NCBI GenBank assembly: GCA_033030425.1
Contig: JAUFSD010000020.1
Coordinates: 1,302,001 to 1,366,000 of the forward strand
From: Verpa conica
Lineage: Eukaryota; Ascomycota; Pezizomycetes; Pezizales; Morchellaceae
Direction of reading: 5' to 3'
Length of the DNA stretch: 64,000 nt
Part shown: positions 7,807-53,409 of the stretch, piece by piece
How positions within the stretch are numbered: the first letter of the stretch is position 1
Layout: each line of letters opens with the position of its first letter
Notes under the pieces: model-generated
The model's database searches: none
The model's input: only the letters and a program-made list of their open reading frames with translations
What the model was told of the DNA's origin: nothing
Position numbers and translations under genes: made by a program

Positions 7807-7998
7807 GTCTGCTAAGGAGGGGAGAGCTGTTTGTTCCTTTAGAGAGTGTGCTCCATCATGAGATTAAAACCACCATAGGTGAGTCATGCATCCTCATCCT
7901 CCATCCCCTCTATTTTCTCAGTTTTTGAAATTCAACACCAACATTTTGCGTGGCAACCACTTTTCCCCACCAAACTCACAAAAATCCCAGGCTTCAGA

Positions 7999-9495
7999 AT
8001 GCCAAGCCTTGACCCCTCCCTCTCTGAAATCTATGACAACCTGCAAACTGGTCTTATAGACCATGAAATAGGCATGCCAAACTCTTCCCTCATTTCTTCC
8101 ACCGTCGCCAGCGCCATGAATGACGACAACACTTCCCCCATGGAAAAGCTGCTCCTCACCCTTCTCTGTTCTACCTTCAAGGTTGCGGCCCAGGCTAAAC
8201 ATGCCGCCCTCGAACTCTCCCATCAACTCGATTCTATCACGGCCGTCGTCGATGACATTCAGACAAAGACTCGGTACGCCTCCAACCATCCCCCCACTGC
8301 CGTCTACGACCGCTTCGAGAGACTCGAGGCCATCGTCAAAAGTGTTAAAAACTCAGTCTCCTCCCCTCCTGCAACCTTCCCCCATCAGAGAACCCAGCCA
8401 GCCACTCCCGCCGGTCCCGCTTATCAGAGCCCACCTGCCAAATCCTCCACCACGCCGGTCACTGTCACCGAAAAGGTGTCCTATGTTGACGCAGCCAAGT
8501 CGGCTGCCAACACCACCACCCCAAAGGCCACCAAGAAGACCACCAACCCTCGCCCCAAGCAACCGAAAGTCACGGAGGATAAGCCCAAGACATTGCCCAC
8601 TGCCCAGCGAAGGTTCTTCTCGTCCAGACAGACCCCCTCTCCCCTCAAAGACTCCGAATCCCTCGTCCAACGTCTCCCTGCTCTTTTAGGCCAGTTCCTC
8701 GCTAAAGGAGGACAAGTCGCCCCCGTCACCTCTCTCACAGTCTCCATCAATCAACGTGGAGCTGTCTCAGTTACCGCCCCCCCTACGGTCCCAGCCTCCA
8801 CATACGCCCCCTTCTTCGAAGGGCTTACAGCCATTCTCAACCAAACGGTCAACGACTCCGCCAACCCGTTTCAGTTGTTTAAACAAGCTCCCACCACCTG
8901 CGATGTAGCCATCAGAGGCATCCCCCTAAGCGAATTCCCCGATCTTGACCATCTTAAAAAGTCCTTCCCTGAAGCAGTTAAACTCGCAACAGGGATCACT
9001 CCTCTCGATACCCGCTTCCTCACTGCCGACGACACCACTCGCAACACCCAGAAGTTCTCAACAGTTGTTGTCACTGTCACAGCTGAAGAAGCAGCCATCA
9101 TTGGCACCACCATTAGACTGTTTTCGCGCCCCCGCCACTGCTCCGTCATGTGGTCAGCCTCCAAAGCCACTCTCTGCCGCAATTGCTACAAATTCGGCCA
9201 CCCAACCAAAGGGTGTAAACAGAAAGAGCCTACTTGCCCCATTTGCTCCCTAGGTCACCCCAGGGACAAACACCAGTGCGCCGTTACCACGTGCCCTGGC
9301 CACGTCCGTCCAAAACCCAACTGCTGCGTCGCCTCTCCCTCCAAATGCGTCAACTGCGGAGGTAACCACACAGCAAACTTCTCGAAATGCCCTCATCGCA
9401 TTTCCATCATTAGCAAACTCAGAGACGGACCTACCCAGGAGGCCCAACCCTCTTCAGACGCCACCGAAGAAGTGGCGATGAACGACACCAATTAA
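7999..9495 (+). CDS. LINE ORF1, gag-like nucleic-acid-binding protein
   Basis: Encodes 498 residues from ATG 7999. The frame is open upstream but has no other ATG, and an upstream GTG would lie in the target-site duplication. The N-terminus has a possible helical segment; the middle is rich in Pro, Thr and Lys. The C-terminal part carries three zinc knuckles: CRNCYKFGHPTKGC (CX2CX4HX4C), CPICSLGHPRDKHQC and CVNCGGNHTANFSKC (both CX2CX3HX6C), the array typical of ORF1 in Tad1/I-type LINEs. The expected role is to coat LINE RNA in the ribonucleoprotein particle. Its TAA stop is directly abutted by the ATG of ORF2. Confidence 0.9.
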   Translation: MPSLDPSLSEIYDNLQTGLIDHEIGMPNSSLISSTVASAMNDDNTSPMEKLLLTLLCSTFKVAAQAKHAALELSHQLDSITAVVDDIQTKTRYASNHPPTAVYDRFERLEAIVKSVKNSVSSPPATFPHQRTQPATPAGPAYQSPPAKSSTTPVTVTEKVSYVDAAKSAANTTTPKATKKTTNPRPKQPKVTEDKPKTLPTAQRRFFSSRQTPSPLKDSESLVQRLPALLGQFLAKGGQVAPVTSLTVSINQRGAVSVTAPPTVPASTYAPFFEGLTAILNQTVNDSANPFQLFKQAPTTCDVAIRGIPLSEFPDLDHLKKSFPEAVKLATGITPLDTRFLTADDTTRNTQKFSTVVVTVTAEEAAIIGTTIRLFSRPRHCSVMWSASKATLCRNCYKFGHPTKGCKQKEPTCPICSLGHPRDKHQCAVTTCPGHVRPKPNCCVASPSKCVNCGGNHTANFSKCPHRISIISKLRDGPTQEAQPSSDATEEVAMNDTN

Positions 9496-12400
9496 ATGTT
9501 TAGTACGACCACTAAACATTCTCCTTTTTTTAACATCATTCAACACAACTGCGCCGGGAGCAATAATGTGTTTCTTTCTCTATTCTCAAATCCAGTAGTT
9601 CACTCGGCACAGGTTGTAGCTGTGCAAGAACCCCCGTTATTTAATCGCTCTCCTTTAGTTGCACCCAATTTCGCTCTCTTTAAACCCACACCCACACTTC
9701 AGTCAGATAAGGTGTCGGTGTGCTTTTATGTTAATCTGTCCTTTTTGGATAAGAATTCCGTTACCCAGACCCCCTCACACCGAGGGGACATTGCGTTCAT
9801 TACACTGCATTTTACCACCTCAAATCGCACATTTTTATCCTTAACACTTGTTAATGTTTATAACAGACAAGTGTCCGATTCTGTTAGATCCGTTCCTCCT
9901 TATTTGGTCTTTCAGGCCTCGTCTGTCCCTACCGTCGTTGTTGGAGACTTTAATGTTCACTCTCCCGCCGCGGATCCCCTACGAAAGTTCTCCACAACAG
10001 AACTAAATCTTTCCACTCCCTATTTTAGGCTAGCCAACCAACTTGGCTTTTCGCTCATTAACACACCTGGCAAATACACCAGAATCTCCCCTGACCCGAG
10101 AAAACGACACAGCGTTATCGATTTCACCTGGGCAAATCACTCCGCAACCCAATTGATTCAAAAGTGGCTTATCCCACCAGTCCCCTCAGGCTCAGACCAC
10201 AGAGTCATACTCTGTCAGCTGGCCCCTCCAGACTCCGACTTCACTCCCTACAACACCCCTAACTGGGCTCTCGCTAACTGGGATCTTATTGCTCCCCAGT
10301 TAAGCGAGTTACAATTATCCTCTGACTCCTCCGACCTAGACATCTGGTTCGACGAGTCCTTTAAACAACTTCATAACGTCCTTCTTTTACACACCCCCAC
10401 AAAGAGAGTCTCATCATGGTCGAAACCATGGTGGAACCCTAACCTTTCCCAATTAAGATCTATTTATCACAGCGTTCACAAGTCCTACCGCAAAGGACTC
10501 TCCCCTCCATTCGAGCTTAAAGCGGCCAAAAACGCCTACTTTAACGCTATCAAAAAGGCCAAACGCGACCACTGGAACACGTTTGTGTCCAACGCCTCCC
10601 CCTCCGATATGTGGCGGCTTAAGAAAATGGCCACCAGATCCGAGGACCGAATTCCGTCCATTCCCAATTCCCCCACACCCCAAATTCTAAATGAAAATTT
10701 AGTAAATGCATTCTTTCCCCCGAGACCAGATACTGGTTCTCCCCCTCCCCTACGGTTTCATAGCGTTCCCGTTATCACCCCTGAAGAAATTCAGCACGTT
10801 CTCTCCAAAACATCCAACCTGTCGGCACCAGGACCCGACTCCATTCCTTACTCAATATGGAAAGGTGTCCACAGGCTCAACCCTACACTCATTCCTAGAA
10901 TACTTACCCCTCTTTTAAAAAGCGGTTATCACCCACTTTCATTAAAAAAGGCAAACGGTGTTGTCCTAGCCAAACCAGGCAAAGATGATTACACAGCCAC
11001 CTCCTCCTATCGAATAATTGTGCTTCTCCAAACATTTTCAAAAATTCTGGAGAAAGTCGTCACCCTTAGACTGGCAAAGATTGCGAAGGCCACCGGCCTA
11101 GTTCATCCACACCAGTGCGGCTCTGTCGCAGGCCTCTCCACCTCAGACGCCACCACTGTCTTTTACAACGAAATCAGAGCTATGCAGTTAGCTAAGCTCA
11201 AAGTCTCCACCCTCTTTTTAGATATCAAAGGCGGCTTTGACAATGTGGTCAAACACACCCTAGCCTCCATTCTTACTTCCCAAAGCGTCCCCCCCTATAT
11301 GGTCAATTGGATTCTGTCCTTTTTGTCCGATCGCTGGGTCACCTTGCTCTACAAAGGCTCTCCCAAGCTAGCTGTTCCCGTTCAAGTTGGGGTCCCCCAA
11401 GGATCCCCCATCTCTCCTTTATTATTTGTTATTTACGTTAGCGTTTTACATCACCTGGAACCATCACCAGGTATTACTTTATCATATGTTGATGATTTTG
11501 CCATCACGGTTGCCTCACCCACAGTTGAGGAAAACATTCTCTTACTTCAAGAAAATTACTATCGTCTCAAAAACGACGCAGCTCCCCGCAACGTGTCCTT
11601 CTCAGTCGCTAAAACTGAGCTGATGCACTGGCGCACCCCCAGAGACAAGTCCCCAGTCTCACATCTCTCCGTGTGTATCGATGGACACACCTTCCATCCA
11701 AAACCAATAGTCCGGTGGGTCGGCTACTGGTTCTCACCCTCTTTTAACCCTAACGATCATTTTGTAAGAAGACTGGCGTCCGCCCAGGCCTCCTTCGGCA
11801 TTTTTCATAGATTCTCCTCTCCCGGGAAAGGTCTCTCCTCAGGAAACTGCAGGAAACTTGCTACTCTCGCTATTCGCCCCATGCTTACCTATGGAGCCAC
11901 TCTTTTTACCCCCACCTCAGCCCTAAAAGAAATGGAGGTCTTCTGGAACTCCGTCCTCAGGTGGGCCCTAGGTTGCTTTAGGTCGACCAATCTACACGCT
12001 CTATGGGCGGAGGCATCTGCCCCCCCGTTGATACTTTACCTTCATTATCTTAAGATCAAACACGCCATCCGAGTTGCTACTGCCCACCCCCTTAACAACC
12101 CAGTCACGGCCCGGTTTGACTCGTCGTTCCCAACCATCTCACCCGAACGGAGCTATTCACACTCCGAACTTCTCAAAGGCCTCCCTAACCCCCCCAAAAA
12201 GTGGAATTCGGTCGCCAAAGCAGGCGTGAATCACCTGCCAATCGAATTTTTAGGTTCCCTAGTCCGTCCGTTACTAGGCTCCAATCTCAGCCATAAAAGC
12301 TTTTCAGTTATGGTTAAGCAACAGCTCCTAAAGAATTGGGAGATTCTCTACCCCCCACCCAATTATTACAAATATGGTTGTTCTCTTACAACTCCATACT

Positions 12401-12765
12401 TTATGTCTCTTCACAAGTTTCAATCCTCCCGTCTCCATCAAATGCGGGTGGAAAAGAGTTATCTAAACGCCCATAAGTCATGGATAAATCTCCACACTCC
12501 CGACACCTGTCCCAGGTGTCTTTCCTCCCCCGAAACAACAGAGCATGTACTTCTGCACTGCCCCAGCCTCGCTGTGTCCAGAAATTCTCTCCTACCCAAC
12601 ATTAGATCCCTTGACGAAATTTGGAGCTCTGAAGCCCTTTCGCTACTCGTCGGGACCTTCGTTGTTCAAAACAAAATAAATTTTCCCAAAAAAGCGCTTC
12701 CGTCACCAGCGCCATCCTCCCTCACTACGTCTTCTCTCACCTCCATTACCTACTCCGAATCATAA
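9496..12765 (+). CDS. LINE ORF2, AP-endonuclease/reverse transcriptase
   Basis: Encodes 1089 residues. The N-terminal exo-endo-phosphatase endonuclease (about residues 10-240) shows IQHNCAGSNN, AVQEPP, VVGDFNVHSP and GSDHRVI; it nicks the target for primed reverse transcription. The reverse transcriptase (about 440-760) shows FSKILEKV, LFLDIKGGFDNV (catalytic Asp near 577), GVPQGSPISPLLF and SYVDD near 663. A CCHC-type finger (CPRC...H...C) follows near 1005. I see no RNase H domain, which many Tad1/I-clade elements have. SYRIIVLLQ replaces the SYRPI-type consensus of fungal LINEs, a possible point mutation. Translation probably depends on reinitiation at the TAAATG junction with ORF1. Confidence 0.93.
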   Translation: MFSTTTKHSPFFNIIQHNCAGSNNVFLSLFSNPVVHSAQVVAVQEPPLFNRSPLVAPNFALFKPTPTLQSDKVSVCFYVNLSFLDKNSVTQTPSHRGDIAFITLHFTTSNRTFLSLTLVNVYNRQVSDSVRSVPPYLVFQASSVPTVVVGDFNVHSPAADPLRKFSTTELNLSTPYFRLANQLGFSLINTPGKYTRISPDPRKRHSVIDFTWANHSATQLIQKWLIPPVPSGSDHRVILCQLAPPDSDFTPYNTPNWALANWDLIAPQLSELQLSSDSSDLDIWFDESFKQLHNVLLLHTPTKRVSSWSKPWWNPNLSQLRSIYHSVHKSYRKGLSPPFELKAAKNAYFNAIKKAKRDHWNTFVSNASPSDMWRLKKMATRSEDRIPSIPNSPTPQILNENLVNAFFPPRPDTGSPPPLRFHSVPVITPEEIQHVLSKTSNLSAPGPDSIPYSIWKGVHRLNPTLIPRILTPLLKSGYHPLSLKKANGVVLAKPGKDDYTATSSYRIIVLLQTFSKILEKVVTLRLAKIAKATGLVHPHQCGSVAGLSTSDATTVFYNEIRAMQLAKLKVSTLFLDIKGGFDNVVKHTLASILTSQSVPPYMVNWILSFLSDRWVTLLYKGSPKLAVPVQVGVPQGSPISPLLFVIYVSVLHHLEPSPGITLSYVDDFAITVASPTVEENILLLQENYYRLKNDAAPRNVSFSVAKTELMHWRTPRDKSPVSHLSVCIDGHTFHPKPIVRWVGYWFSPSFNPNDHFVRRLASAQASFGIFHRFSSPGKGLSSGNCRKLATLAIRPMLTYGATLFTPTSALKEMEVFWNSVLRWALGCFRSTNLHALWAEASAPPLILYLHYLKIKHAIRVATAHPLNNPVTARFDSSFPTISPERSYSHSELLKGLPNPPKKWNSVAKAGVNHLPIEFLGSLVRPLLGSNLSHKSFSVMVKQQLLKNWEILYPPPNYYKYGCSLTTPYFMSLHKFQSSRLHQMRVEKSYLNAHKSWINLHTPDTCPRCLSSPETTEHVLLHCPSLAVSRNSLLPNIRSLDEIWSSEALSLLVGTFVVQNKINFPKKALPSPAPSSLTTSSLTSITYSES

Positions 12766-31104: not shown

Positions 31105-32303
31105 CTATCTAATAAATAAATCCATACTATCTAATATTTTGTATACCAGCCCTTTGCCTTTATAACAGCCTCAATCCTCCTAGGAATACTTTCTACCAGT
31201 CTATCAAACAGAGTGTCAGGTATTAATTCCCAGCAGTGAATAAGAGCTTCTTCCATGATAGGCTTTAATACATCTGGTGATTGAGTATTATCTGCCAGGT
31301 GAGAATAGTGTAGATGGTAGAGCTTTTTGAGGTGTACCCAAACATGCTCAATGGGGTTGAGATCTGGAGAATAGGCAGGCCAGTCCTCCAACAACTCCAC
31401 CCCATTATCCACCAACCAGTCTATTGAATGGTCTGCTGTATGGACTCTGGCATTGTCCTGCATGAAAATAGGCCTTATATCCTTCTGGCGCAATTCCTCC
31501 ACAAAATCCACCAAGTTAAACTCTAAAGTCTCCACATATGACCTAGCATTTACATTCCCTTTTATCCCCACCCTTGCTCCATCACAAGGACCCTTCAATC
31601 CCCCAGCAAAGCATGCCCACATCATCTTTGTTATCCTGCTCGTCTTATTCATGCCTTTAACACACTCTGGAAGCCATTTTTCCTTTGCAGTTCTAAAGAC
31701 CCATTGGACTAAAGGATCTGCATATTTTTCAACACTGCACTCATCACTCCATATCACTCTCCTCCACTTCTCCACCCCCCATTTCCGGTGCTTAATACAT
31801 CATTTAAGTCTTCTTTGAGCCAGAGAAGGTGATAGTTTGGGTCTTTCTGCTTTAATGTGTTTGTGGACACCATGCTCTCCAAGTCTTCTCCTAATTGTTG
31901 TAGTAGACAACTGAACAGCAAAATTTAAGCGAAGATTATTGTAGGATATATCGCGGTTGTGTCTAGTAGCATTCACTAGATTGCGCTCATTCTTTTCAGA
32001 GGTCTTTTTAGGTCTCCCAAGTCTTGGGGATGCGATTGTGGTGCCTGTTTTAAGGAAGCGCTGCCAGGCAGTTGAGAGAGTTGATATTGGTACACCAAGT
32101 CTCTTAGAAATCTCGGCAAAAGTGAGGCCTGCTTCATGCATTCCTATAGCCCTGCCTAGGGTGAACTCTGGCCATTCTCGGCGTTCAGTTTTGCGGCTTT
32201 GCTTAGGGGTGGTGTGGGGTGGGGCCATGGTTGCACGGGTGGGGTAGCGGGGTGATCGTGGTTGCGTTGCATTTTTACGTTCACATTTGGTACCTGACTA
32301 TAG
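31105..32303 (-). mobile_element. Tc1/mariner element B, inserted in element A
   Basis: A second, distinct Tc1-type transposase gene lies between the last codons of element A's transposase and A's 3' end. Putative ends are next to TA dinucleotides (31103-31104, 32304-32305). Deleting the segment with one TA rejoins A's reading frame. The terminal inverted repeats are weak (both read inward CTAT), so the ends are provisional. Confidence 0.55.
31131..32228 (-). pseudogene. Tc1-type transposase of element B, one nonsense codon
   Basis: A single frame of about 365 codons broken only by TGA at 31800-31802. N-terminal part: paired-like helix-turn-helix (GLTFAEISKRLGVPISTLS) and GRPKKTSE linker, which bind the terminal repeats. 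C-terminal part: DDE catalytic core with WSDECSVE, FMQDNARVH and SPDLNPIEHVW, spacing about DD34-35E, ending KAKGWYTKY. The TGA sits where element A has Trp (LEW), so it is most simply a Trp codon lost to one substitution. Otherwise intact, so inactivation is recent. Confidence 0.85.
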
Positions 32304-33413: not shown

Positions 33414-33955
33414 GTAGCTAAGGAAACACCCTACGCATATTTATCTCTAAACTCGGTACGAGTCATTGTACGGTTTGATTTAGCTGCACGTACAATCTGT
33501 CGGCGCTGCTGGTGATTCAGCAAAGGAGTACGGCCCGATCGTGGAATATTGTCGATAGAAACTCGTGCACATGCGCGTACCAGGAAGCTTTTTACGGTAG
33601 ACCATGGACGACAGACTAGGTTGGCAACTGTGGTAACACACCAATATATGCGGAAGAATGCAAGGATCGTTCCTTTTTCGCAATCATCTATTTGTTTTCG
33701 GGAGGTTTTGGTTTTGTACTTCGGGACTTTAGCTTTTGGTTTTGTACGGGGGCGCGTATAGACCAGTTCGCAGTTTCAATCCTGCAGTGGGTTGCAACCA
33801 CCTATACCTAAAAACTTATTGGCAAATAAAATAAAATAAATTCATACTAGTTTAAGAGCAGAGAAGATTAAAATATTAATTATGAATCCAAAATTGCTAT
33901 GTAGTATACAAAGTAGTAAATATTACTTCTGCTATTACTATGTATTTCTCAATGT

Positions 33956-34143
33956 GGCAGCTGTGAACTCTGCCGTTGCCATGTGTTTCTCAAAACGGTA
34001 ACTGTGAACTTTGCCATTGTCATGTTTATCCCAGTGTAGCAACTGTGAACACTGCCGTTGCTATGTGTTTCCGAAAATGGTAACTGTGAACTTTGCCGTT
34101 ACCATGCTTATCCCAATATGGCAACTGTGGACTTTATTCTCAC
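33956..34143 (+). repeat. Left subterminal repeat array (five 41-bp units)
   Basis: Units start at 33956, 33997, 34038, 34079 and 34120, an exact 41-bp period, each containing a version of GGTAACTGTGAACTTTGCC. The core GTAACTGTGAAC recurs as its reverse complement in the right-end array. Arrays like this near transposon ends usually serve as transposase-binding sites; that role is inferred here. Confidence 0.85.
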
Positions 34144-34180
34144 TGTATTCTTTTAAGTTTTCTTAATAGTACAAAAATAT

Positions 34181-35988
34181 TTATTCCTCAAATTCGCTAG
34201 CAGTATTATATGCAGATCCAGATCCAGATTCTCCACCTTCATCTACAATTTCGTCATTATTTTCCTCCATATTTTGTAATCCACTTTCTCTAATATGTTG
34301 AGCATCTATGCTAATAGGATAATCTTTTTCAAGAGGAGAAGATATTAAATGAACTCGAGGGTTTCGATTTCCTTTAATATATACATGATTTCTGACATTT
34401 AATCTAAGCGTACAATACATAAGGAAATGTGACTTCTCACCATTGAGTTCTCGTTTTTCATAGGTAACTGGTAGTTCAAAACCACCTTTTAGCAGCAAAT
34501 GTTTACACCATGACATAGTTTGAGCTGGTAGAAATATATCATGATCTAATAACATTTATATTAGCATGTCTTTGTATTTAAATTAGAGCAAAATTTGGAT
34601 ATTTTACCATAATTCCCTACCATATCTTCTAAGCAAGAAATCCCTTCTCTTGATGGAATATAGGCATAGTCAGATATATTATCTGGTGGATAAAAATAAT
34701 TATAATAAGGTATTCCAGTAGGTAAACTAGGCCGATTCTTTTGAGCTCGAATTTTGTGTGAATTCCAATTTTCTACAAAGCTATGAAGCTTTTCACGAAT
34801 TATAGGCATGTAGATAAATAACAGAGCAATTTTATCTTCATTTGAGCCATCAAAAAGATTTGAATTTTGTAGCTCAACAAAATATCTCTAAAAAAATTAA
34901 TTTAGTTAATTAATATATTGATATATAGGAGATCAAACATACCTTCCATTCAATTTCTTTTCCTTTAGACAACTGTGCCCACCATGACTCTATTCGGACA
35001 TTTTTTGTGGAAGCACCATACATAAATGTACTCGAGAGATGGATATTTGGGGTTTGTGTTTTATGTAAATGCCAGTGACCATCTGCAATTAACATAGTCT
35101 CAGTACCTCTATCAGCTCGTAAATATTGAGGAAATCGATTGTGCTCTTGAATAGCTTTTAAGTATTGGCTTAAAACGCTAACTCCAGTTCTAGCAGAAAC
35201 TCCACAATAAAACCATACTATCATACGAGAATAAGCATCAATTGCCGCATATATTTCTATCCCAAAAAACTCGAGCTTCATATGACCATCAATTGACCAA
35301 CACCAATTAGGACCTGGACATGTGAATTGTGCATGTTTCCGATTAACATCTTTTGTTCTAGATTCCACACCTTGAGGATCTACAATCAATAAAGCTTTTC
35401 GTATTCTCTCCCTACAAACAATATTAGTTATTTAAATTTATATAGGAAATGTTAAATTCCATACGTTGAAGCTACAACTCCTAGGCTTTTCAGATGAACC
35501 CAAACAGCTCGGTGGCCAGAGAGAACAATATCACCCTTTAATAACTCTCGTTCCAAAATAATCCTCAAGTTTTCATCTGCATGAGTTAAATCCCTACTCA
35601 ATGTACGTCGAACCATACCCATTGACTGACGGATCCTAATCATTTTTCGCATCTCTATTTGGAATCCGTTTTTCTGCAGAACCTAATACATTAGCTAACA
35701 TTTAAAAATATATTAATATAAACCTACTCGAAGTATTTGTTCATCATTCAAATTTTGTTTCCAAAATAGATAGCTTAACTGGATCCGTAGAGTAGGAGAA
35801 TCTTCTGAAGGTAATATTTGTTTCCGAAAGCTCCAAATATTGAGCCGGGTAGAAAGTGATCTTTCAGAGCAAACAAATCGATTATCAGCAAGCTTTTGTA
35901 CTACTTGTTTTAGAGAAAGGTTTTGTTCAATATATAGTTGATATATAAAATCTTTATACTGTTCAAAGGGTAAAGCTGATCGAGGCAT
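34181..35988 (-). CDS. Integrase-fold (DDE) transposase with Clr5-like N-terminus, five exons
   Basis: Exons 35728-35988, 35465-35682, 34943-35411, 34608-34887 and 34181-34545 join in phase through introns of 45, 53, 55 and 62 bp, giving 530 residues. The N-terminus (PFEQYKDFIYQLYIEQNLSL...) resembles the fungal Clr5-type helix-turn-helix. Residues about 190-320 are an rve/integrase core: WSIDGH (Asp201), AIDAYSRMIVWF, RADRGTE (Asp260) and RIESWW (Glu301), a D-58-D-40-E set of catalytic residues. The C-terminus is acidic. It should cut and join the element's own ends. No stop or frameshift was found, so it is potentially functional. It starts about 100 bp from the internal 40-bp array, divergent to the unknown gene. 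Confidence 0.88.
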
Positions 35989-36229
35989 AGTATAGCTGGT
36001 AATAATGAGTTTAGAAAGTAAAATGAGTTTAAAAAATTGTAGAGAATTTTGGGAAAGTCTATACATTATATAACAAGTTTTCGAATAATATAAAAAGTAT
36101 AGAAATGATATAAAAGGCATACTAATAACATGAAAAGTGTAAAAGCAGTACAGGGGGTTTAGAAATGACATAGGGGGCGTACAAGAAGTACAGGGGGTTT
36201 AGAAATGACATAGGGAGCGTATAAGGAGT

Positions 36230-37911
36230 TAGTGTTTGTCTTGGAGCGATTCGGGACGGTTCCTAAAATTCTGAACCCACCCCACCGTGGGTTTGGGGGC
36301 AGATTTTGACTAAAAAAACCGCCCGGCCGGGGCGATTCCCTGGTCGGGGATGGTTTGGGGCGGTTCCCTGTAACGGGGGCACTCCCAGGGGAGTACTGCC
36401 GTACCAAAAAAAACCAACAACCTCCCTTTCTGACGAGAAGCTTCAGCAGCGAGGCTTAGAACCGCTCGTCAACACGGAAGGTCGACAGTCCCTAGGCAAA
36501 ACAGGAATAAGGATTTAATGGATAGATAACTAAAGACTTTAAAAGGCTCTGCTTCCCAGGGGAAGACAAACGTCTTTAGCAAAGAGTATGAGGGTCTCTG
36601 AACAACGGTTGTTCGTTGACTAGCAAGAATGATTGTCCTGGGGGGAAGGACGGGTTTAAGCTATGATTTTGATTGCGAGCAGGCTGCCAAGAAGCGGGGG
36701 AACAATTCCTCCGCGCTTGGAAATCAACTGAGTCTAGAGCGCCCCTAAGAACTAGCGGGGTCGATAGACTAGCGACTAAAAAGCGTTGGTTACTAAAAGC
36801 TCTGTAACTATTGCTAAAATGGTCCGATTTCAAATCCGATTGCACCTATGGATTCGCAGCACTGTCCCCCATATACCCTCCGAGTTTGGTTTGGTTGGAC
36901 GAATTTTCCTGACGGTTTTGGGGTTATTTTTGGGGTCCAAAACTTGTCTTTTTGTTAGGGAATCAGCAACTCAGGGGGGCCCCCTCTGCAAACGGCGGGT
37001 GGCACAGTGGGGTGCCTCGGGGGTGTTAGAAAACACAGAGTCCCCTAGGTAGGGTAACCCACTGGTGATTCCTGCCGTTGCTTAGATTCCTTTCCCACGT
37101 TCCTAGTCCAACCTGGGGTCGTGGCGGAGAGGTAATCTTGATCCATAAGGACCTTAGGGCGACGCACAAGGCATAGCCCCATATGGTTCGATTCGTGACG
37201 CCGCCAGGTTAATTATTAATTTTGCTGGCGGCCCTAACAACTAAGCATAGCTTTGCTCTCGTTTCATGACTCTCGGCCTTCCGTAAGGATGGCCTTCAGC
37301 GAAGCTGTTATTATTCCTCCTAGAGGAACAGGAGCTTAACTCTGTTCAGGGAGGTAACTGCTTCAGTCTCATTGCACTAGTATTTCCCGTAGCTAAGAGC
37401 TACAGACGCATTACTCTGGTCTCTGTCGCATACCGACGACGGTGAGCTTCGCTCCGTCCTAGGGGCTCGCCAGCTCGCTTAGGGATCGGGCTATCATAGT
37501 AATGGCTTTCCTTAGTATCTATTGACCGGAATGGGATAGCTAGTCCTATGCCTCAAGGGAGATCCTTAGGTGTCTCTATGGAGAGGTACTTGAGACTAGT
37601 TATGACGATGGTTAGATCGTCACATTCCCCACTGGGGAGAGTTCTATTTCTGCACCACTATGTATATACCGTCATTCATACACCATTCATACGCCTTCCA
37701 TACGCCTTTCATGGTGCTTTGGAACTCAATTGCAGTCCCCAAAGGCTGTATATATCAATTTTTCTCTAATTGGGGCCCCGAGATGCACGGTCCTCCCCCC
37801 GTCCTTTGCTCAAAATCCAGAATTGCTCCGCCTTGTGGAGCGGTTTAGGGCGGTTTTTTGGTGCGGTTCTCCGAGGCATTTGGAGGACCGAGTCCCCCGT
37901 GACAAACACTA
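36230..37911. mobile_element. hAT-like MITE inside the tandem array, split by a solo LTR
   Basis: Inverted ends TAGTGTTTGTC (36230-36240) and GACAAACACTA (37901-37911), with flanking octamers TAAGGAGT (36222-36229) and CAAGGAGT (37912-37919) that match at 7 of 8. Without the LTR and one TTCCC copy it is about 421 bp. The octamers are themselves part of the 40-bp repeat unit, so the duplication is slightly less certain than usual, but continuity of the array across the element supports it. Confidence 0.7.
36369..37624 (+). mobile_element. Solo LTR, copy 2 (1.26 kb)
   Basis: TGTAACGGGGG...GATCGTCACA with perfect 5-bp duplication TTCCC (36364-36368, 37625-37629). Same family as 2064-3297 but inverted relative to it, with roughly 90 percent or higher identity by eye. 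It lies inside the hAT-like MITE, and is the innermost and so youngest layer of the nest. Confidence 0.92.
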
Positions 37912-38503
37912 CAAGGAGTACAGGAGGTTTAGAAATGACATAGGGGGCGTACAAGAAGTACAGGAGGTTTAGAAATGACATAGGAGGCGTACAAGAAGTA
38001 CAGGGGGTTTAGAAATGACATAGGGGGCGTACAAGAAGTACAGGAGGTTTAGAAATGACATAGGAGGCGTACAAGAAGTACAGGGGGTTTAGAAATGATA
38101 TAGGGGGTGTACAAGGAGTATAGGAGGTTTAGAAATGACATAGGAGGCGTACAAGAAGTACAGGGGATTTAGAAATGACATAGAGGGCGTACAAACAATA
38201 TAAGAAATTTACTCATGACATAGAAAGCCTATATTTGATACAAATGACATAGAGGGCGTAAAAATGACATAGAGAGCGCAAAAATGACATAGAGGGCGTA
38301 CAAATATTAATAAAAATGTAATAAACCTGTTTTTATAATGACGTCAATAAAAAATATCTAGATTATAATATTCTTTTTAAAGATCTGATATAATAGAATA
38401 TATACTTATTCAAATCCCCTTTCTGTTTCTCTTACATATTCTCTCTCTAGTACTTCTACAATCACTAATTACTGCCTTCTCGAGTTAAAAAACTATTTAA
38501 ATT

Positions 38504-40108
38504 ATGCCTTCAACAGAAAAGCCTGCTGGCCGATGGTGTTCTCAAAGTTTAAGTGGAAAAGAACATGAAAATAGTATCAATCTCCGATATGAATGTTCTG
38601 GGAAACTTGTTCCGGATTCTCTCAAAATCGTATCAAAACGAGTTCTAGCAACAAACGTATCTCAACCCTTTATATCCTCTGAGCTTCCAAAGCGGAAGCG
38701 TGTTAAGAGGTCAAAAGACAAGGCTACTTTAGCTCCTCCACTCATTGATTTAATATCTAGTTCAAATTCTAGTGAAGAATATGAACCTTTTGTACGTCAG
38801 AGTCATTCTACAGATACAAATTCTCATACATCTTTATTTAAAACAGGTCAGTCCACCACTCGTTTAATTATCGAAGCTACTAGGCAGAAATCAATTAAAA
38901 ATAGTCAAATAGAAGCCACAAATAAAAGAGTTGGGAGCAGATTTGGTCTTTCAGATATACCATCAGCTATGGCAAAAAGCACTACTCGCTCCGGATATGA
39001 TAGTCAAAAGATATCAGACAGCCGAAAACTTTCCATATGGTTTAACTCAACTCCTAAAAGTTGGCCAAAAACCGGAATACCTTACTGGAGTAGCTTTTTA
39101 CAAGTTGGTAAGAATTCTCTTGAAGTATATATAACTATAATTTAACTATTATTAGGGGTTTCTACAAAGCAGTTCTCCAATCTCAATGAGGAAATCAATG
39201 GATCTTTGAAAAAATATATTAAAAATAAACTTTTTGACAAATCCACAGCTTGGATTGAGTGGTGCCGTCGTAGAGAGAATATTGACAATGACTCTTTACG
39301 TCATACTAACTATTATTTAGCAACTGGATTTCATGCCAAAGAAGGTCCTCACTATATTGAAGCCAAAGATGAAGGACCTGGCACGATTGGTCAACTTTTA
39401 AGTAGTTTTCCAGCCGGTGCTGGTGCTGGTGCTGGGAGGATTTTCATAATTGTAGAAGAGTTCTATGATAATTCTGATGAAGAAATACCTATATCTAGTA
39501 AGAACGCCCCAAAAATCATATACAGACATAATTAAATGAATATTGCTAACTAAATTAATTAGCCCTATTAAAACCAACTATATCCAATATAAAAATTAAA
39601 AAAGAAGTTATTAAGCAGGAAGATATTAAGCAGGAAACGGAAGCTACTCAGAAAAAGCCAAGTTATTTACATCAAGAGAGGGTAAAAAACGCTAGCAGTA
39701 AATCAGATTCCGAATCTGAATCAGTTGAAGATAGTTTAAGCTCTGACACTGATAACATACTTGAGAATACAGTAATTATTTCTAAGTAAAATTTTTGGTC
39801 AATATAGCTAATTTGCTTAAAGCTTCAAGAGAACCACAATTTTCTAGCGGATTTTGAGCTTCCTTCACATATACCTCCAAAAGAAGAAACATTTATTCCT
39901 GCTGGTAGTAATTTAGGAAATAATTTCGAATCACAGAGTACTAATTAAATCAACTATTTTAAGAAATTTTGCTAATTACGATTTAGATATAATTGATGAT
40001 GATAAAAACCCACCAGCTAGACGTACAAGATCTCAAAAAAGACCCAAAATAAGTATATTTACCCTATACCTAAACTCATATGTTATGAATAAATTATACC
40101 TAACTTAG
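38504..40108 (+). CDS. Unknown transposon-encoded protein, five exons
   Basis: Model: 38504-39107, 39156-39497, 39563-39771, 39823-39937, 39987-40108, all phases consistent, 463 residues; the first two introns are the most certain. Residues 1-200 are Ser/Lys-rich with a basic cluster KRKRVKRSK (nuclear signal-like). A folded-looking middle segment (YIKNKLFDKSTAWIEWCRRREN ... HYIEAKDEGPGTIG) precedes a GAGAGAG tract. An acidic tail carries IKKE, IKQE and IKQE, each fitting the SUMO-acceptor pattern hydrophobic-K-x-E, and the C-terminus is basic (ARRTRSQKRPK). No family is recognised. It diverges from the transposase across the 40-bp array, and may be a transposition accessory or regulator. That is inference from position only. 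Confidence 0.6.
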
Positions 40109-40756
40109 TTTTATATAGTTACATACTAGTATTCTCCGGTTTCTAGATGTTAACTTCTTATATATATACTATTATAATATTTTGCTCCTATTAAAATCTC
40201 TTTGGAGTTTCTATTGTTTATGTTTTGTTTAATATTAAATTTATTCCAGTTAATATTCTGAGAGCTAGGGTTACTACTAGGGTTGCCTAGGGTTAGGGCG
40301 GCAGCTACCGAGTGATTGCTCATGATCTAAATTTCCGAAAATAAATTTTATAACTATGAATTTAAATATAAAAGTACTAGGTGGAGCTATATAACTATTC
40401 TCTATATACAGTCCTTTTATCTATATATATAAACTATTTTTGAAGTAGTTTAACTATTAAAGCTGTTTGAGTTACGAAAATTCGAGTGAGAATTGGTGAT
40501 TTGCGTACTATTTATTTTTTTAATTTATGAATAAGTGCTTTAAAAACTTGAATAATTCAGCTATGGTAGTTAACGCTATATAGAGTATAATAGTCAATTT
40601 ATTGAATGTATTCAGATTAACCTAAGTATATAAAATGTATACTAAAGAAATATAATGTGTACTTAAGAAATATAATGTGTACTTAAGAAAAATATAAATA
40701 ATAATAGAATTATCATGCTATGATAATATAAGAAATCACATTACTCAAACAATTTC

Positions 40757-42194
40757 CTACTCCGATTTTTTACCTTTCTTCCCACTTTTCTTCTCCACAG
40801 CTTCTTCAATAATGTTTAGATCCAAAATAATGGGTTGAGTGGAAGCCACTTCACAGTTACATGGCTGATATTTTTTTCCTTCTGATAGCCAATCTTCAGT
40901 GGCAAAATTCATAGCTTCTGCAAGGTTCCAGCCGCTATTAATACCAGAATGATATGCTCCAGGCCATACAATTATCATTTCTCCTTTTGTTTGAGTGAAT
41001 TGATAGCAAGCATAGCCTGATTTCTTCCAAGCTTCAGGTGTAAGAGGAGGAGAGCTTAAAACAAAGCCTTGGTGACGTAAAGCTTGTGGACATGTAGTAA
41101 TCTCAAGCTCCTCAATAGTAGCTATTAAATAGAATTAATATAAATATAACCTATTTTTTAGTATAGAGAAACTAACCTTTAGATTCTGTCACAAACATCT
41201 GCATGCAATGCCCAGGAATAATATGCCAAATTTTAGGAGCACCATCAATAAGGGTGTTTGCAGAATGGCAATGATAGTCTTCTACATGCCAGGCAAAAGC
41301 AGTACCAGGAGTACCAAAATAAACGTAAGGTGTAGTGATTCCTGGTATAGAATCTAAACCAGGTGTAAGGAGAAGGTTCCAGTCGTTATTAAAGAGATGA
41401 GTCCATGTTCTATCCATATTAACCATTGAAACTATACTTTGTTAGATATTAAACATTTTTATAAAATGAATAGGGATATACCATCTGTATCTACCCCATA
41501 AGGTCTTACTTTAGACTGCTGGTTTTTCGATTTCACAACTTCTTTATTCACTTTTTCCCAAAATGAATCCATAGTACCAATTAATTGATAGTCTTCCTTT
41601 TTGATAATCTGATTATGCCAACGTGACATTTTGACATATGCAGGCAATGAAGCCACTGTATAAGCCTTCCCTCCATCGTTAATACTGCTTGTAAGTTCTT
41701 CAAAAACTTGATTTCTGACAAGAATATCAATTTTGGATAAGGGTTTAGAAACAGGAGTTTTAAACCATTCTTTCCCAGTTTCGATAGGTGGAAGACATAG
41801 CTTTAAACCTCCATAATGCCTGCCTAATTGAGAGAGCATTTGCAGTAGAAGAGGAAACTCTTGGATGCCTTTGGAAGTGGGTGTAATAGTAGGAGGATAA
41901 AGAGTATTTGTATGCTTTACAATAGCATATGTGTCAGGGATTAGATGGAAACGTAAAGGTTTAGGGACTTCAGCAACTGAATTGGCTTCATTTGGTTGAG
42001 GTAGAATAATTGGTGTTTTTGCTATTCCATAATTATTTAATTATTCAACTATATAGAATTTTATACATACCAATTTCAAGTACTCTATTTTTTCTAGTCC
42101 ACTGGCGCTTATATTCTCTTTTAGGATTAATACTATCCTTGCTTACTTTTTTATTAGTAGCAATGGTGTTGATTGTATGGTTGATAAAAGACAT
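40757..42194 (-). CDS. KDM4-like JmjN/JmjC histone demethylase-type protein, four exons
   Basis: Exons 42071-42194, 41482-42021, 41177-41431, 40757-41121 join in phase through introns of 49, 50 and 55 bp, giving 427 residues. A JmjN-like segment (about 60-105, ending LKLCLPP) precedes a JmjC domain (about 214-400). By comparison with KDM4A from memory: iron ligands His270, Glu272, His364 (WHVED; AYHSG); 2-oxoglutarate contacts Tyr216, Asn280, Lys288; zinc ligands Cys317, His323, Cys394, Cys396 (CPQALRH; CNC). All are present, so the enzyme could be active on methylated histone H3 lysines such as K9 or K36. No PHD or Tudor reader domains; the C-terminus is Lys-rich. It lies wholly inside the transposon, transcribed inward from the right end. 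A role in countering silencing of the element is inference. Confidence 0.88.
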
Positions 42195-42267
42195 TTTATA
42201 TGAACTTGTAAGCAATTAGTATTTTGGTTTTGTGAATTATGGTTGCGCTGCCTCACTTACTTTGATG

Positions 42268-42465
42268 AAAGTTCACAGTTACTGTATTTGGAAGGTGCTC
42301 TGAAGAGTAGCAACAGGAAAGTAACAGCAAAAGTTCACAGTTACCGAGTTGGGAAGGTGCTCTGAAGAGTAGCAACAGGAAAGCAACAGCAAAAGTTCAC
42401 AGTTACCGAGTTGGGAAGGTCTTTCTGAAGGAAGGCAACAAAAGTTCACAGTTACCGGTTTGAAA
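42268..42465 (-). repeat. Right subterminal repeat array (four units)
   Basis: AAAGTTCACAGTTAC, the reverse complement of the left-array core, starts at about 42268, 42330, 42391 and 42440; the longer unit (about 61 bp) also contains GAAGAGTAGCAACAGGAAAG. Arrays at the two ends point in opposite directions, as transposase-recognition arrays do. Confidence 0.82.
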
Positions 42466-42890
42466 GAGTAACAGCAAAGGAATAGCAGAGCAGAAGGAAT
42501 AAATCTTCTGTGCCAAGCACACTGAATCTCGGCGCAAGCCTTGGCGCTGCCTCGGCATCCTCAAGTGAAATAAGTACCTTTTGTATAATTAGTATTACTT
42601 ATTTTCTCTGTCTTATTTTATCTTATCTATTACAGCTGTTGAAATTCTATATATTATTGACTTAGTTGTGGGACCCAGCTGTGGGTACCCGGCTGTGAGC
42701 CATTGAGTTGCGACCGAAGAACCGAAACTGCGAACTGGTCTATACGCGCCCCCGTAGTTTTGCCATTTTGTGTAGGTGTTCTGGGTTCTCGATGGTTCAG
42801 GGGCTTGCGCTGCTGCTGGAAGCGAACCCACAACTTTTGATGGGGTATGCTTAGTCAGCCAATCACGAACATTTCTGCGTACTGACTGTA

Positions 42891-48341: not shown

Positions 48342-51300
48342 ATGAATCCCCCACCAAAATCCATTCCAGCCGGACCCGAGAGGACTCGTTCGCGAGGCTA
48401 CCAGATGGAAATGCTCAATGAGAGCTTGAAAAGGAATATTATCGTTACTGTACGCGACACGCATTATATGTGTAGTCAAAGTAATATAAGCTGACCGGGT
48501 ATGTGTGCTCCGTTGTGTAGATGGATACGGGCTCCGGAAAGACGCATATGTATAAACCACCGGATATCCGCTTTAGGCCTGATTCCAGGATACTCCGCTG
48601 ACTATGTGATATTAGTGCCATACTCCGGATCCGTTCTTACTTGGAAACCGGGGAAGGAAAAGTATTGATATACTCCACCTTTGTTATACTCGCTTATATT
48701 AATTGACAGTAGATATGCTGGCTCTTAGTCCCCAGTGTACCACTAGGAACCCAGCAATTTGAAGTCCTCAAAGAATCTTTACCACCGGTTAATATCCAGT
48801 TCTTGAGCGGGAGCGATAATGTAGATAAGTGGAAGACACAGGATATATGGGATCGAGTTTTGAAGTTGCGAGAGAAGACAGCGACGGTTGTGATTAGCAC
48901 GCATCAGGTTTGTCACCACCCAGGGTTGGAAATGATGAGGACCAGGATTGACGTGATGAGTAGATTCTGCTGGATGCATTGACCCATGGGTTTTTGGGTA
49001 TTGATAGGATCGGAGTGCTGATATATGATGAAGGTTCGCCGACTTTATTGTTCTAACACTTGAGTTCCTGAATAAAAAAGAGTGCCTAGTCAGGTATATT
49101 ACACGTACTGACTGAAAAGCTACACGCAGCGCACCACTGTGTCGGCAACCACCCCGCAAACCGCATCATGAAAGACTTCTACCACCCAAATTTTCACCGT
49201 GATGTTCCCTCTATCCTCGGGCTCACGGCCAGCCCCATCGTCAAGTCTAAGCCAAATCAGCTTAGGTAGGTACCCCTACCAAGGCAAATGATCTGTTGCT
49301 AACTCATCTATAGGGTTATTGAGTCCAATCTAAACGCTATATCTAGAACACCGATCTTGAATCGTGATGAGCTAATGCAGTACGTTCATCCACCGGTATT
49401 GAAGAATGTCCTATATGAGGCTGCACCATCCATTAAAAAGGTGGTTGAGATGAAGGTGGAGGATGAAAAGCCTTGGGAGGGGACTGGCGAGAAAAGGGGG
49501 CTTAGTCCCACGGGTGATGGGCCGGCGATTGCGAGGTTGAAGCTGTCGAGGACGGGGAGCGTTGACTTCAAGTAAAACCCCTAACCCTAAAATTCATTTT
49601 CTTCGTTTATTTTGATATTCATTTCTGCCTCTCTCTCTTATTTTCTGTCCTTTTTGTGTGGCTTATCTAACTTCCATCCCATAGGACAAAGTCCCGGCAA
49701 ACCCCCCCGTGGTGCACACCAGCACTCAGGTCCCTGCTGCAGGCTTATTCCAATATGAACATCATGGAGGACCCTAAAGTCCTACAACTCCTTGCCACGG
49801 AGCCCCCTGACCTTACCCGAATCCAGCAGACAATCGAGCATAAGAAAACACGGTCGCAACACCAAATGCGAGGTATTGTAAATAAGGCTGGCCACGTCCT
49901 TACAGAATATGGTATCTGGGGAACGGAATGGTATATCACAATGATTGTAAAGAGGGCACTCGAGGCCATGGAAGAGGACTCTGAGTCAGATGTATTGGCG
50001 GGGTGGGATGAAGAGGAGAAGCGTTATTTCGGGGGTGTGTTGAGAAATGTCGAGGTGGGGGTAGGGTTTGGGGATGTAAGGTGGGGAATTACGGATAAGG
50101 TGAAGAAGCTGATCGCGTTATTGGTGATAGAGTTTAATAGCGAGGGTGGGGGAAGGGAGTTTTCAGGTCTGGTGTTTGTGGAACAGAGGGTTGGTGTGTC
50201 CGTTTTGGCGGAGATCTTGAGGGAACATCCCGAGACAAAGGATATATTTGAAGTTGGAACTTTAGTGGGGACATCGGACAATTCAGCAAAGACAGGAAGG
50301 TTGGTGTTTGAATTAGTCGGCTTAAGAGAGCAGAAAGAGACAATCGATGGTTTTAGGAAGAAGGCAAAGAATATTGTTATCTCAACGAGTGTGGTGGAGG
50401 AGGGTTTGGATATACCGGCCTGTCACTTGGTGGTTTGCTTTTCGCTTCCACAGAACGTCAAGAGCTTCATCCAGCGGCGAGGACGGGCGAGAAGAGAGAG
50501 GAGTACGTATTATCTGATGTTTGAAGAAGGCTCAGATACGAGGGCGAAGATCGGAGCGTTAGAGCACTTGGAGAGGGAGATGATAAAGGAATATATGGAT
50601 GAGACCAGAGAGCTTGAGCACAGGTTGGATATTGATGAAGGCGAAGTGGATGAAGATGGGGTAATAAGTGATGCGGAAAATAGGAAGTTTCTTGTTAAGA
50701 GCACCAAGTATGTTTTTCTATTCTCATCTCATACTCATCTCACGCAATATTAATATTATATATAGTGCTTTGTTGACGCTTGATTCAGCTGTATCCCACC
50801 TTCACCACTTCTGCGATACCCTCCCGTATACGGAATACACAGACCTCCGTCCCATATTCACCGTAGAAGTCTCATTGCCTGATCGAGGGTTATTTTTTCA
50901 AACAGACAAGAAACACTATCGAGCGGAAGTCCTGTTGCCAAACTCTGTACCACAAGCTCTGCGGCATGCAACGAGTAAATTTTCATGGGAAAAGAAGCGC
51001 TGGGCGAGGCGGGATGCTGCGTTTGAAGCGTACCTCGCGTTGTATAAATATGAGGACCCACTTATTAATGACCACCTGCTACCGCTTTCTTCAGCAACTA
51101 CCGTTACGAATATACCATATACGAGACCAGCTACCTCTCTTATGGTGAAAACGGTGGATCCATGGGAGGGTACGAGTTGGACAGAATCGACTGTAATATA
51201 TGCTACACCGATTATACTACACATGCCGAACGCGGAACCGGTCGAGATGAATATACTAACTACCATGCAATGCCCTCATATTGACAAGATTCCAATCTAT

Positions 51301-53409
51301 TGGACCAAATCCGAGATAGGGGAGGTTACTATCGGTGAATCATGCTGTCTCGGGGTAAATTGGAGTATTATTGAAAGAGCGAAAATAATTACGTACGAAC
51401 TGTTATATACAGTACATACATCAAGGATGGGAGATGGTGTAATGAACCTTCCATACTTGTTCTTTTGGAAAGATGTTGGGACTCCAGCCTGGGGTGTAGA
51501 AAGTGATAAGAATAATAATGCATACGATGCATATAAGAAGGGCCACTTTTCACCAAAAGAGGTAGGGATCATCAGAGAAGCTAAGCAGGCGCACTCCCGC
51601 TACATATTTTCTCGGTGGAGGAACGATATATCACTATTGGGAGACGTGGATATCACCACGAAGTACAGTGGTAGACCGATCGACCTGGATCAGCCCATCA
51701 TGGAAGTCTATAAGTTTCCCAATCGCCGTGACTTCCTTCATCAGTTAGCGAATGAGTCTGAGCTGGAGACTATTCTTCTCCTTCCTCAATACTGCACTAT
51801 TGACAAAGTCCCATGGCACTACTCTCAGTTTGCCTTATTCGTCCCAGGGATAATTCACAGGATTAGTACAACCTTAATTGCTTCGAATATTCAAAATACC
51901 CTACTTTTATCGGTGGGTTTCAAGTCAACCTCCAAGGTTCTCACCGCACTATCTACCTCGTCAGCAAGGGAGCTGCATGACTACCAGCGGTTGGAGTTTC
52001 TCGGGGATTCAGTGTTGAAATTGTTAGCATCAGTCAATCTACTCGATGAGCACCCGTCATGGCATGAAGGAATGCTTTCTACCCGGAAGGCAGAGGTAAT
52101 ATCCAACACAGCTCTGGCTAAAGCAGCACAGGAGAAAGAATTGGCGAGATGGATCATTTCTGAAGAATTCACGGGGGCTAGGTGGGGCCTGCACTACGAT
52201 ACCTCAGGGCATGATGGCTACAAGAAACAATTGGAACCTAAGCGTTTACTACATTCCGGAAATAGTCTATCGAAAAAGGTGCTGGCAGATGTTGTGGAGG
52301 CGCTTATTGGCGCGGCGTATGATGAAGGGGGATATGAACAGGCCCTTAAGTGCATCGTGGCGTTTGATCTTGATTTAGTCTGGAAACCGTTACGGACAAG
52401 AGCGAGCTCCCTGCATGAAAGAGCGGGAAACTGCCCACGAGTTGATATATCATACCTCCGCGGTTTACAGGAGCTCCTCGGGTACGAATTCAAGAACCAG
52501 GCCGTTCTTCTGGAAGCGATAACTCACCCTTCCTCTGAACTCCGTTCACCGTCCTATCAACGTCTGGAATTTCTTGGCGATGCACTACTCGATATGTTGG
52601 CGGTTGATGAGTTGTTTTTTGACCCAAAGCACCTCCTGCCGGCTGATATGCATCTGTATAAATGCTCTGTCGCTAATGGCAATCTTTTGGCGTTTTTATC
52701 TATGGGTTGCTCAGCAAGAGAAAATATACCAAAGGTTGAGGAGTTAGGACGGGACAACTTTCATGTCATCACTCAGGAGCGGAAAACCAATATATGGGAC
52801 TATGTTCATCTCTCACACCCAGAGATGATCAAAGCAAAAAGAAGATTTATCGACTACAACGAACGTTCCGGTACCCGTATTCAGACTCTCCTAGACACAG
52901 GAACACACTACCCTTGGGTCGAAATCTCACCGCTAGAAGCAGACATAACAGGTAAATGTAAGCTTTTTGCAGACATGGTTGAGGCTATTTTTGGAGCAGT
53001 GTTTGTGGATTCCGCGGGAGACTTTGGGGCTATCAAGACATTGGCGGAGAGATTTGGCATTGTAGGAATTTTGAGGAGATTCGTGAAGGATGAGGTCAAT
53101 GTCTTGCATCCTTTCAATAGATTGGCTGAAAGTGCGGCCAGGTTAGGTAGAGGACCGGTCTCATATCATGATAGTTTCGAGAACGGCTTGTATGCACATA
53201 CGGCGTCGACTGAAGGGGGGGAGCTGGCTACCGCCAAGTCGACTTGCAAGGTGCACTCAAAGTTGTTGGCCGCTGAGATGGCTTTAGAGGTTTTGACACG
53301 GGCGGCGAATGATGAGGAGGATTTAAGGACACAAAAAAGCCCGGCGACTGAGACGTTTAGACCTGACTACGATGGTGACGTTTGTATGGGTGTTGACCCT
53401 GCATCTTGA
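48342..53409 (+). CDS. Dicer-like ribonuclease, nine exons, 1502 residues
   Basis: Exons: 48342-48449, 48521-48549, 48616-48661, 48713-48907, 48964-49033, 49130-49265, 49314-49571, 49685-50707, 50766-53409; all junctions keep phase. Domain order: helicase motif I MDTGSGKT (about residue 37), DEAH (148-151), helicase C-terminal part with QRRGRAR (about 544), Dicer dimerisation domain (about 630-720), RNase IIIa (RLEFLGDS near 1030; DVVEALIGAAY near 1130), RNase IIIb (RLEFLGDA near 1221; DMVEAIFGAVF near 1359), and a C-terminal dsRNA-binding-like region (about 1400-1475). Catalytic acidic residues are present in both RNase III domains. No canonical PAZ domain is evident, as in many fungal Dicers. 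It cuts double-stranded RNA into small RNAs for silencing; it is closest in layout to DCL2-type genes, but a symbol is not assigned. Confidence 0.9.

Follow-up and report, generated by a model that had tools for sequence, protein, structure and literature searches.

The window analyzed here, a 64,000-nucleotide stretch of Verpa conica DNA (contig C20, 1302001-1366000, of a 45.8-Mb genome searched as 25 contigs, C1 to C25), contains a DNA transposon at positions 33745-42756 that fits the IS3EU kind and carries a gene for a predicted KDM4-like JmjC protein (40757-42194). The JmjC gene is mobile together with the element, and its presence in both complete copies found suggests a parasite equipped to resist silencing by its host. 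Judging from sequence, we put at roughly 60% the probability that this IS3EU-kind transposon carries a resident KDM4-like demethylase as cargo, which would counter heterochromatin at the element.

The initial annotation of the window had described perfect 33-bp terminal inverted repeats (TIRs) and a perfect 6-bp duplication, and both were confirmed. The left TIR (TACGG..., 33745-33777, plus strand) and the right TIR (...CCGTA, 42724-42756, minus strand) are identical, and the target-site duplication GTTTTG can be read directly on both sides (33739-33744 and 42757-42762). The inverted arms extend to 44 nucleotides at 89% identity. Further inward, subterminal tandem repeats containing AACTGTGAACT (33940-34133, plus strand) are inverted relative to a right-end set, AAAGTTCACAGTTAC (42268-42485, minus strand); the left-end repeats are possible transposase binding sites. 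With up to three mismatches allowed, the terminal 20 bp occurred 14 times in the genome (7 per strand), and a reversed control pattern occurred 3 times. A chance inverted repeat was ruled out, as a second copy exists and each copy has its own duplication. According to PMC12730594, fungal IS3EU transposons are characterized by TAYGG..CCRTA ends, TIRs of >30 bp, and 6-bp duplications. The 33-bp TACGG..CCGTA ends, the GTTTTG duplication, and a transposase of the DDE integrase type without an HHCC zinc motif all agree with the earlier description of the element as IS3EU-like. Taken together, these features are those of an apparently autonomous cut-and-paste DNA transposon.

All three genes of the element were spliced by hand (GT..AG introns of 45-65 bp), and in each the only stop is terminal. 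The transposase gene (34181-35988, minus strand, 5 exons) encodes 530 amino acids with an N-terminal Clr5 domain (Pfam, 6.8e-12) and an rva_4 domain (1.6e-32), bearing out the intact integrase-fold transposase reported initially. Motif reading gives the catalytic triad D201 D260 E301, and the integrase zinc-binding family is absent from the Pfam matches to this protein. The transposase has relatives in many named fungi, the closest being from Morchella importuna (58% identity over 66% of the query), which, with the Tuber indicum family cited below, agrees with a Pezizomycete host; among the viral contigs searched, neither it nor the JmjC protein has relatives. The second gene (designated mid; 38504-39789, plus strand, 3 exons, 390 amino acids) has a provisional 3' exon structure. 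Its protein gave no Pfam match above the cutoff, and the structure model of its core (predicted local distance difference test score [pLDDT], 44) is too poor in quality for use. Pfam detected no alpha-kinase domain in any of the three element proteins. The tail of the second gene (39563-39789) contains the motifs IKKE, IKQE, and IKQE, with IKSE in two sister families; these are possible SUMO sites, and a hydrophobic stretch (IFIIVEE / IYIIVKFE) adjoins them.

The JmjC gene (minus strand, 4 exons) encodes 427 amino acids and is open throughout. Where the initial annotation had claimed a complete JmjN/JmjC gene, the JmjC domain was recovered (Pfam, 2.1e-24); the JmjN domain was undetected by Pfam both in the whole protein (E values up to 0.1) and in a 121-residue N-terminal piece (E values up to 10). 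The region that phmmer matches to KDM4D spans residues 89 to 399 and begins inside the JmjN stretch, and the best relatives of solved structure are Rph1 and KDM4 (Rph1, 5.5e-29). Ten residues are invariant in a four-sequence alignment. By their roles in KDM4A, we take H270, E272, and H364 to be Fe ligands, Y216, N280, and K288 to contact the cofactor, and C317, H323, C394, and C396 to bind zinc. The protein has the HxE...H, cofactor, and zinc residues of the KDM4 type, and a metagenomic relative (P0049) retains the final Fe-binding histidine and the final pair of cysteines. In the tree, KDM5-type sequences split away at 99/96, leaving the element protein on the KDM4/Rph1 side. The JmjC protein is predicted to be a KDM4-like histone lysine demethylase.

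Copies, sister elements, and origin of the JmjC gene

For the DNA search for further copies, 40 of 334 candidates were scored, and copy counts are therefore lower bounds. One other full copy was found among them, at C25:342818-350669 (7,852 bp); its ends are perfect, and its duplication is CATATA. Its three genes are all open and encode 530, 390, and 427 amino acids, as in the window copy. Searching the genome with the JmjC protein (8/8 candidates scored) retrieved the same two elements as the only close copies. The initial annotation had allowed that other copies might lack the JmjC gene; transposase, second gene, and JmjC gene instead co-occur between the ends in 2/2 full copies found. These copies occupy unrelated sites, each with a 6-bp duplication of its own, and the JmjC gene is therefore carried along when the element moves. 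Because they are nearly identical, they represent a single capture that moved rather than several.

With repeats excluded, the two copies differ by 39 substitutions, or about 0.6% of ∼6.8 kb. Codon differences are predominantly synonymous in the JmjC gene (7 synonymous, 4 nonsynonymous), compared with the transposase gene (1 and 4) and the second gene (1 and 5). The probability of at least 7 of 11 differences being synonymous is 0.006-0.037 at neutral synonymous fractions of 0.24-0.33, which we regard as small-sample evidence that the JmjC gene is under constraint. Repeat-induced point mutation (RIP) was considered and rejected: among all 56 intercopy substitutions, 18 are C-to-T/G-to-A from the window copy to the C25 copy and 30 run in the opposite direction, giving no clear bias, and the RIP target is not depleted across the three genes [(CpA+TpG)/(ApC+GpT) = 1.18-1.38].

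Related ends with other duplications were found at C2:3309742-3323946 (CATATG), C19:344682-348145 (GCATAT), and C19:1351118-1353966 (5/6 positions matching). These three elements have nested repeats inside and no matches to the three proteins, and they look nonautonomous. For an exact end at C13:1500477, blastn with the element gave no partner in the 10 kb compared.

The transposase matches the genome at 61 places (∼19 loci when grouped by eye), and the JmjC gene is present at two of these loci, the window element and the C25 copy. Homologues of the second gene occur at three further loci on C1, C8, and C5, each adjoining a transposase gene in the same divergent order. Across the family, the second proteins are 37 to 39% identical over their core, with KEGPH and I-x-I-I-V invariant. 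Two of these sister elements were delimited from pattern positions (C1:3778524-3784923 and C8:1613273-1620954; left ends with 1-2 mismatches), and the third, C5:1168219-1174153, is flanked by the duplication CATACC. At the C5 locus (C5:1168924-1172196), a plus-strand, two-exon open reading frame (ORF) left of the transposase reads HFYIADYG...VVWEPGKYHGTT and appears TET-like by eye. A TET assignment of this ORF (C5:1169271-1169970) is not claimed, as Pfam returned an E value of 0.086 for the exon and nothing for the joined reading at a guessed splice point; the structure model of this ORF (pLDDT, 33) is also too low in quality for use.

A JmjC profile retrieved six genomic loci besides the element copies: C18:1056843, C2:2711626, C5:743367, C2:3199391, C1:2647235, and C2:735228. 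The first is KDM5-like, C5:743367 groups with yeast Rph1 (94/93), and C2:2711626 is divergent. The top-scoring host match to the element protein is C2:2711626 (37% over 163 amino acids), and the highest host identity is to C5:743367 (40% over 86 amino acids). Beyond the host, a single-sequence search retrieved one relative and an alignment search retrieved 12, two of them close; candidates were limited to 0.55-1.75 times the query length, which places long fungal KDM4 proteins outside the search. One metagenomic fragment, P0049 (from a 908-bp contig), is 71% identical over 91 amino acids, and another, P0051 (from a 3,506-bp contig), matches residues 36-154 at 55% (119 amino acids).

The initial annotation had called for a phylogeny of the JmjC protein against host genes, and in the resulting tree the element protein joins P0049 (100/99; P0049 covers 45% of columns) rather than the host Rph1-like gene. 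The tree excludes P0048, P0051, and the host loci C2:3199391, C1:2647235, and C2:735228; support is below 80 at 9 of 15 inner branches, and the C2:2711626 host gene and P0050 are long-branch rows. The element protein itself has a branch length of 2.56, and the KDM5-type split gives it no firm position among KDM4-like proteins. GC content is 35% in the JmjC gene, 33% in the transposase gene, and 35% in the second gene, against 45% in the remaining window. Recent capture of a host gene is ruled out by the low host identities, the tree, and GC content, and the JmjC lineage is shown to be separate from the host Rph1-like gene. Together, these three lines point to long residence of the JmjC gene apart from the genes native to the host, either on this element or on one like it. 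The divergent host gene (C2:2709994-2713515) shares a P-I-I-L tail motif with the element protein, and has no JmjN domain found by Pfam; a match to DNA methyltransferase is situated 7.8 kb away from it.

Proposed function and alternatives

We propose that the JmjC protein would be produced upon transcription of the element and would demethylate H3K9 (or H3K36) on the chromatin of the element. The lowered H3 methylation would in turn counter heterochromatin, along with any DNA methylation relying on it. The host genome contains one Pre-SET locus (C24:513075), presumably of the H3K9 methyltransferase type, and three DNA methyltransferase loci (C2:1568111, C8:1156569, and C2:2719800), enzyme types by which repeats are silenced, which makes the substrate pathway plausible. 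In some ascomycetes, such as Neurospora, DNA methylation depends on H3K9 methylation; a JmjC demethylase would thus act upstream of the step reversed by TET enzymes.

Several observations weigh against this proposal. Pfam found neither a targeting domain nor any further domain in the JmjC protein, and the undetected JmjN domain counts in the same direction. JmjC proteins also include some that are not demethylases. No named fungal protein is among the 12 JmjC matches, long proteins being outside the length filter. The initial annotation had looked to several independent copies with the three genes, and these did not appear: the full copies found number two, are nearly identical, and reveal one capture event. 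The selection test for the JmjC gene is based on 11 differences only. Finally, none of the three sister elements contains a JmjC match (0/3 by genome searches with the JmjC protein and profile). The JmjC gene is thus dispensable for transposition, and the transposase and second gene look like the core of the element, with the JmjC gene added.

Such observations could fit a passenger gene that became trapped between the ends a single time and brings the element no advantage: there are only two copies, with 39 differences outside repeats, and the sister elements manage without the gene. We nevertheless consider this unlikely. The JmjC gene is intact in both copies with synonymous changes in excess, its catalytic residues are retained despite the long branch, relatives at 55-71% identity retain the N-terminal and catalytic stretches, and its GC content matches that of the element. 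A role at the target site, in which the demethylase opens chromatin for integration or excision (e.g., as a partner of the transposase), would suit a gene on the same element, given that H3 methylation shapes DNA access. However, nothing in the sequence links the JmjC protein to the transposase, and the sister elements have ends and a related transposase without it, making such a role quite improbable. We likewise give little credence to the protein being another JmjC enzyme (a protein hydroxylase or non-histone demethylase) or a dead binding protein. The branch length of 2.56 and the undetected JmjN domain would be in keeping with that idea, but the Fe, 2-oxoglutarate, and zinc residues are retained and the nearest solved sequences are histone demethylases.

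We thus favor a resident demethylase that may counter heterochromatin at the element. A broader version, in which fungal IS3EU transposons host a mobile family of anti-silencing JmjC demethylases in parallel to TET/JBP, with one clade attacking both histone and DNA methylation, is more tentative and falls a little short of an even chance.

Nested repeats and neighborhood

Between the transposase and second genes lies an insert resembling a miniature inverted-repeat transposable element (MITE) by reading (36232-37909), with ends GTGTTTGTC...GACAAACAC between TA dinucleotides. It is common to both copies of the element, apart from a 1.26-kb repeat inside it (36369-37624) that is present in the window copy only and absent from the C25 copy. 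This nested repeat, absent from the initial annotation, begins with TGT, ends with ACA, and is flanked by a 5-bp duplication (TTCCC). At least 44 further copies of almost full length, 94-97% identical, occur in the genome, and the repeat looks like a solo long terminal repeat (LTR). With TpA/ApT of 1.30 and (CpA+TpG)/(ApC+GpT) of 0.97, the repeat differs from the element genes in the RIP direction. A tRNA-like stretch was noted by eye near 37110-37208, for which ARAGORN (bacterial settings) predicted no tRNA, and Rfam gave no match in the nested repeat. A 40-bp minisatellite flanks the insert on its left (36139-36229) and right (37910-38194).

Elsewhere in the window, an ORF at 31800-32228, ∼1.5 kb left of the element, resembles the start of a Tc1/mariner-type transposase by reading. 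Two long ORFs at 7879-12765 similarly resemble a Tad1-like non-LTR retrotransposon, and two others at 49755-53409, ∼7 kb from the element, read as a Dicer-like gene.

Comparison with known systems

How histone methylation silences transposons has been studied in depth. Among the open-access papers listed, we found no precedent by title or abstract for a transposon-encoded JmjC demethylase that would erase the mark, in line with the initial annotation, which knew of no described JmjC demethylase within an IS3EU-like element. Relative to KDM4 and Rph1, the element protein shares the JmjC core and the residues for Fe, cofactor, and zinc and differs in its length of 427 amino acids, its undetected JmjN and lack of further domains in Pfam, and its long branch apart from the host Rph1-like gene. 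It points to a family of short, divergent JmjC proteins. Among other transposon-encoded proteins, SET proteins add histone methyl groups rather than removing them, and the VANDAL protein is not an enzyme of the JmjC kind. The plant VANDAL anti-silencing proteins and the SET genes carried by HarbingerS and MuDR, both mentioned in PMC12730594, are further cases of transposons encoding proteins that affect epigenetic state, as the JmjC protein would. At the level of the superfamily, IS3EU/GingerRoot elements have TA..TA ends, usually 6-bp duplications, and a DDD/E transposase (PMC10045372), and the window element is alike in all three.

The closest parallel is provided by fungal IS3EU and other transposons that carry TET/JBP genes, which have been argued to counter methylation-based silencing; one ascomycete TET+ IS3EU family, from Tuber indicum, is named (PMC12730594). 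The main text of that source contains no occurrence of JmjC or jumonji. In the V. conica genome, the Tet-like family PF20515 matches five loci, with no match within the window element. Two of these have an IS3EU-type transposase in the vicinity, 5.2 kb away at C15:1341768 and 6.4 kb away at C24:644587, and their regions are 95-99% alike where both were read, so a transposase and a TET-like gene may share an element there; the outer ends of these two loci were not found. Ends like those of the MITE-like insert border the aligned stretch of the two loci.

TET/JBP IS3EU elements and the window element share the end type, the duplication length, and a 2-oxoglutarate/Fe(II) dioxygenase, predicted in the case of the window element, as cargo (PMC12730594). 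In the former, the cargo is a DNA 5-methylcytosine dioxygenase located between the transposase and an alpha-kinase gene (same source), whereas the window element carries a JmjC histone-demethylase homologue beyond its second gene. If the enzyme works, the element would make it possible to ask directly whether a genomic parasite opposes heterochromatin by means of its own eraser, beside its DNA-dioxygenase relatives. The JmjC cargo would then parallel, at the level of histones, the TET/JBP dioxygenases on other fungal IS3EU elements.

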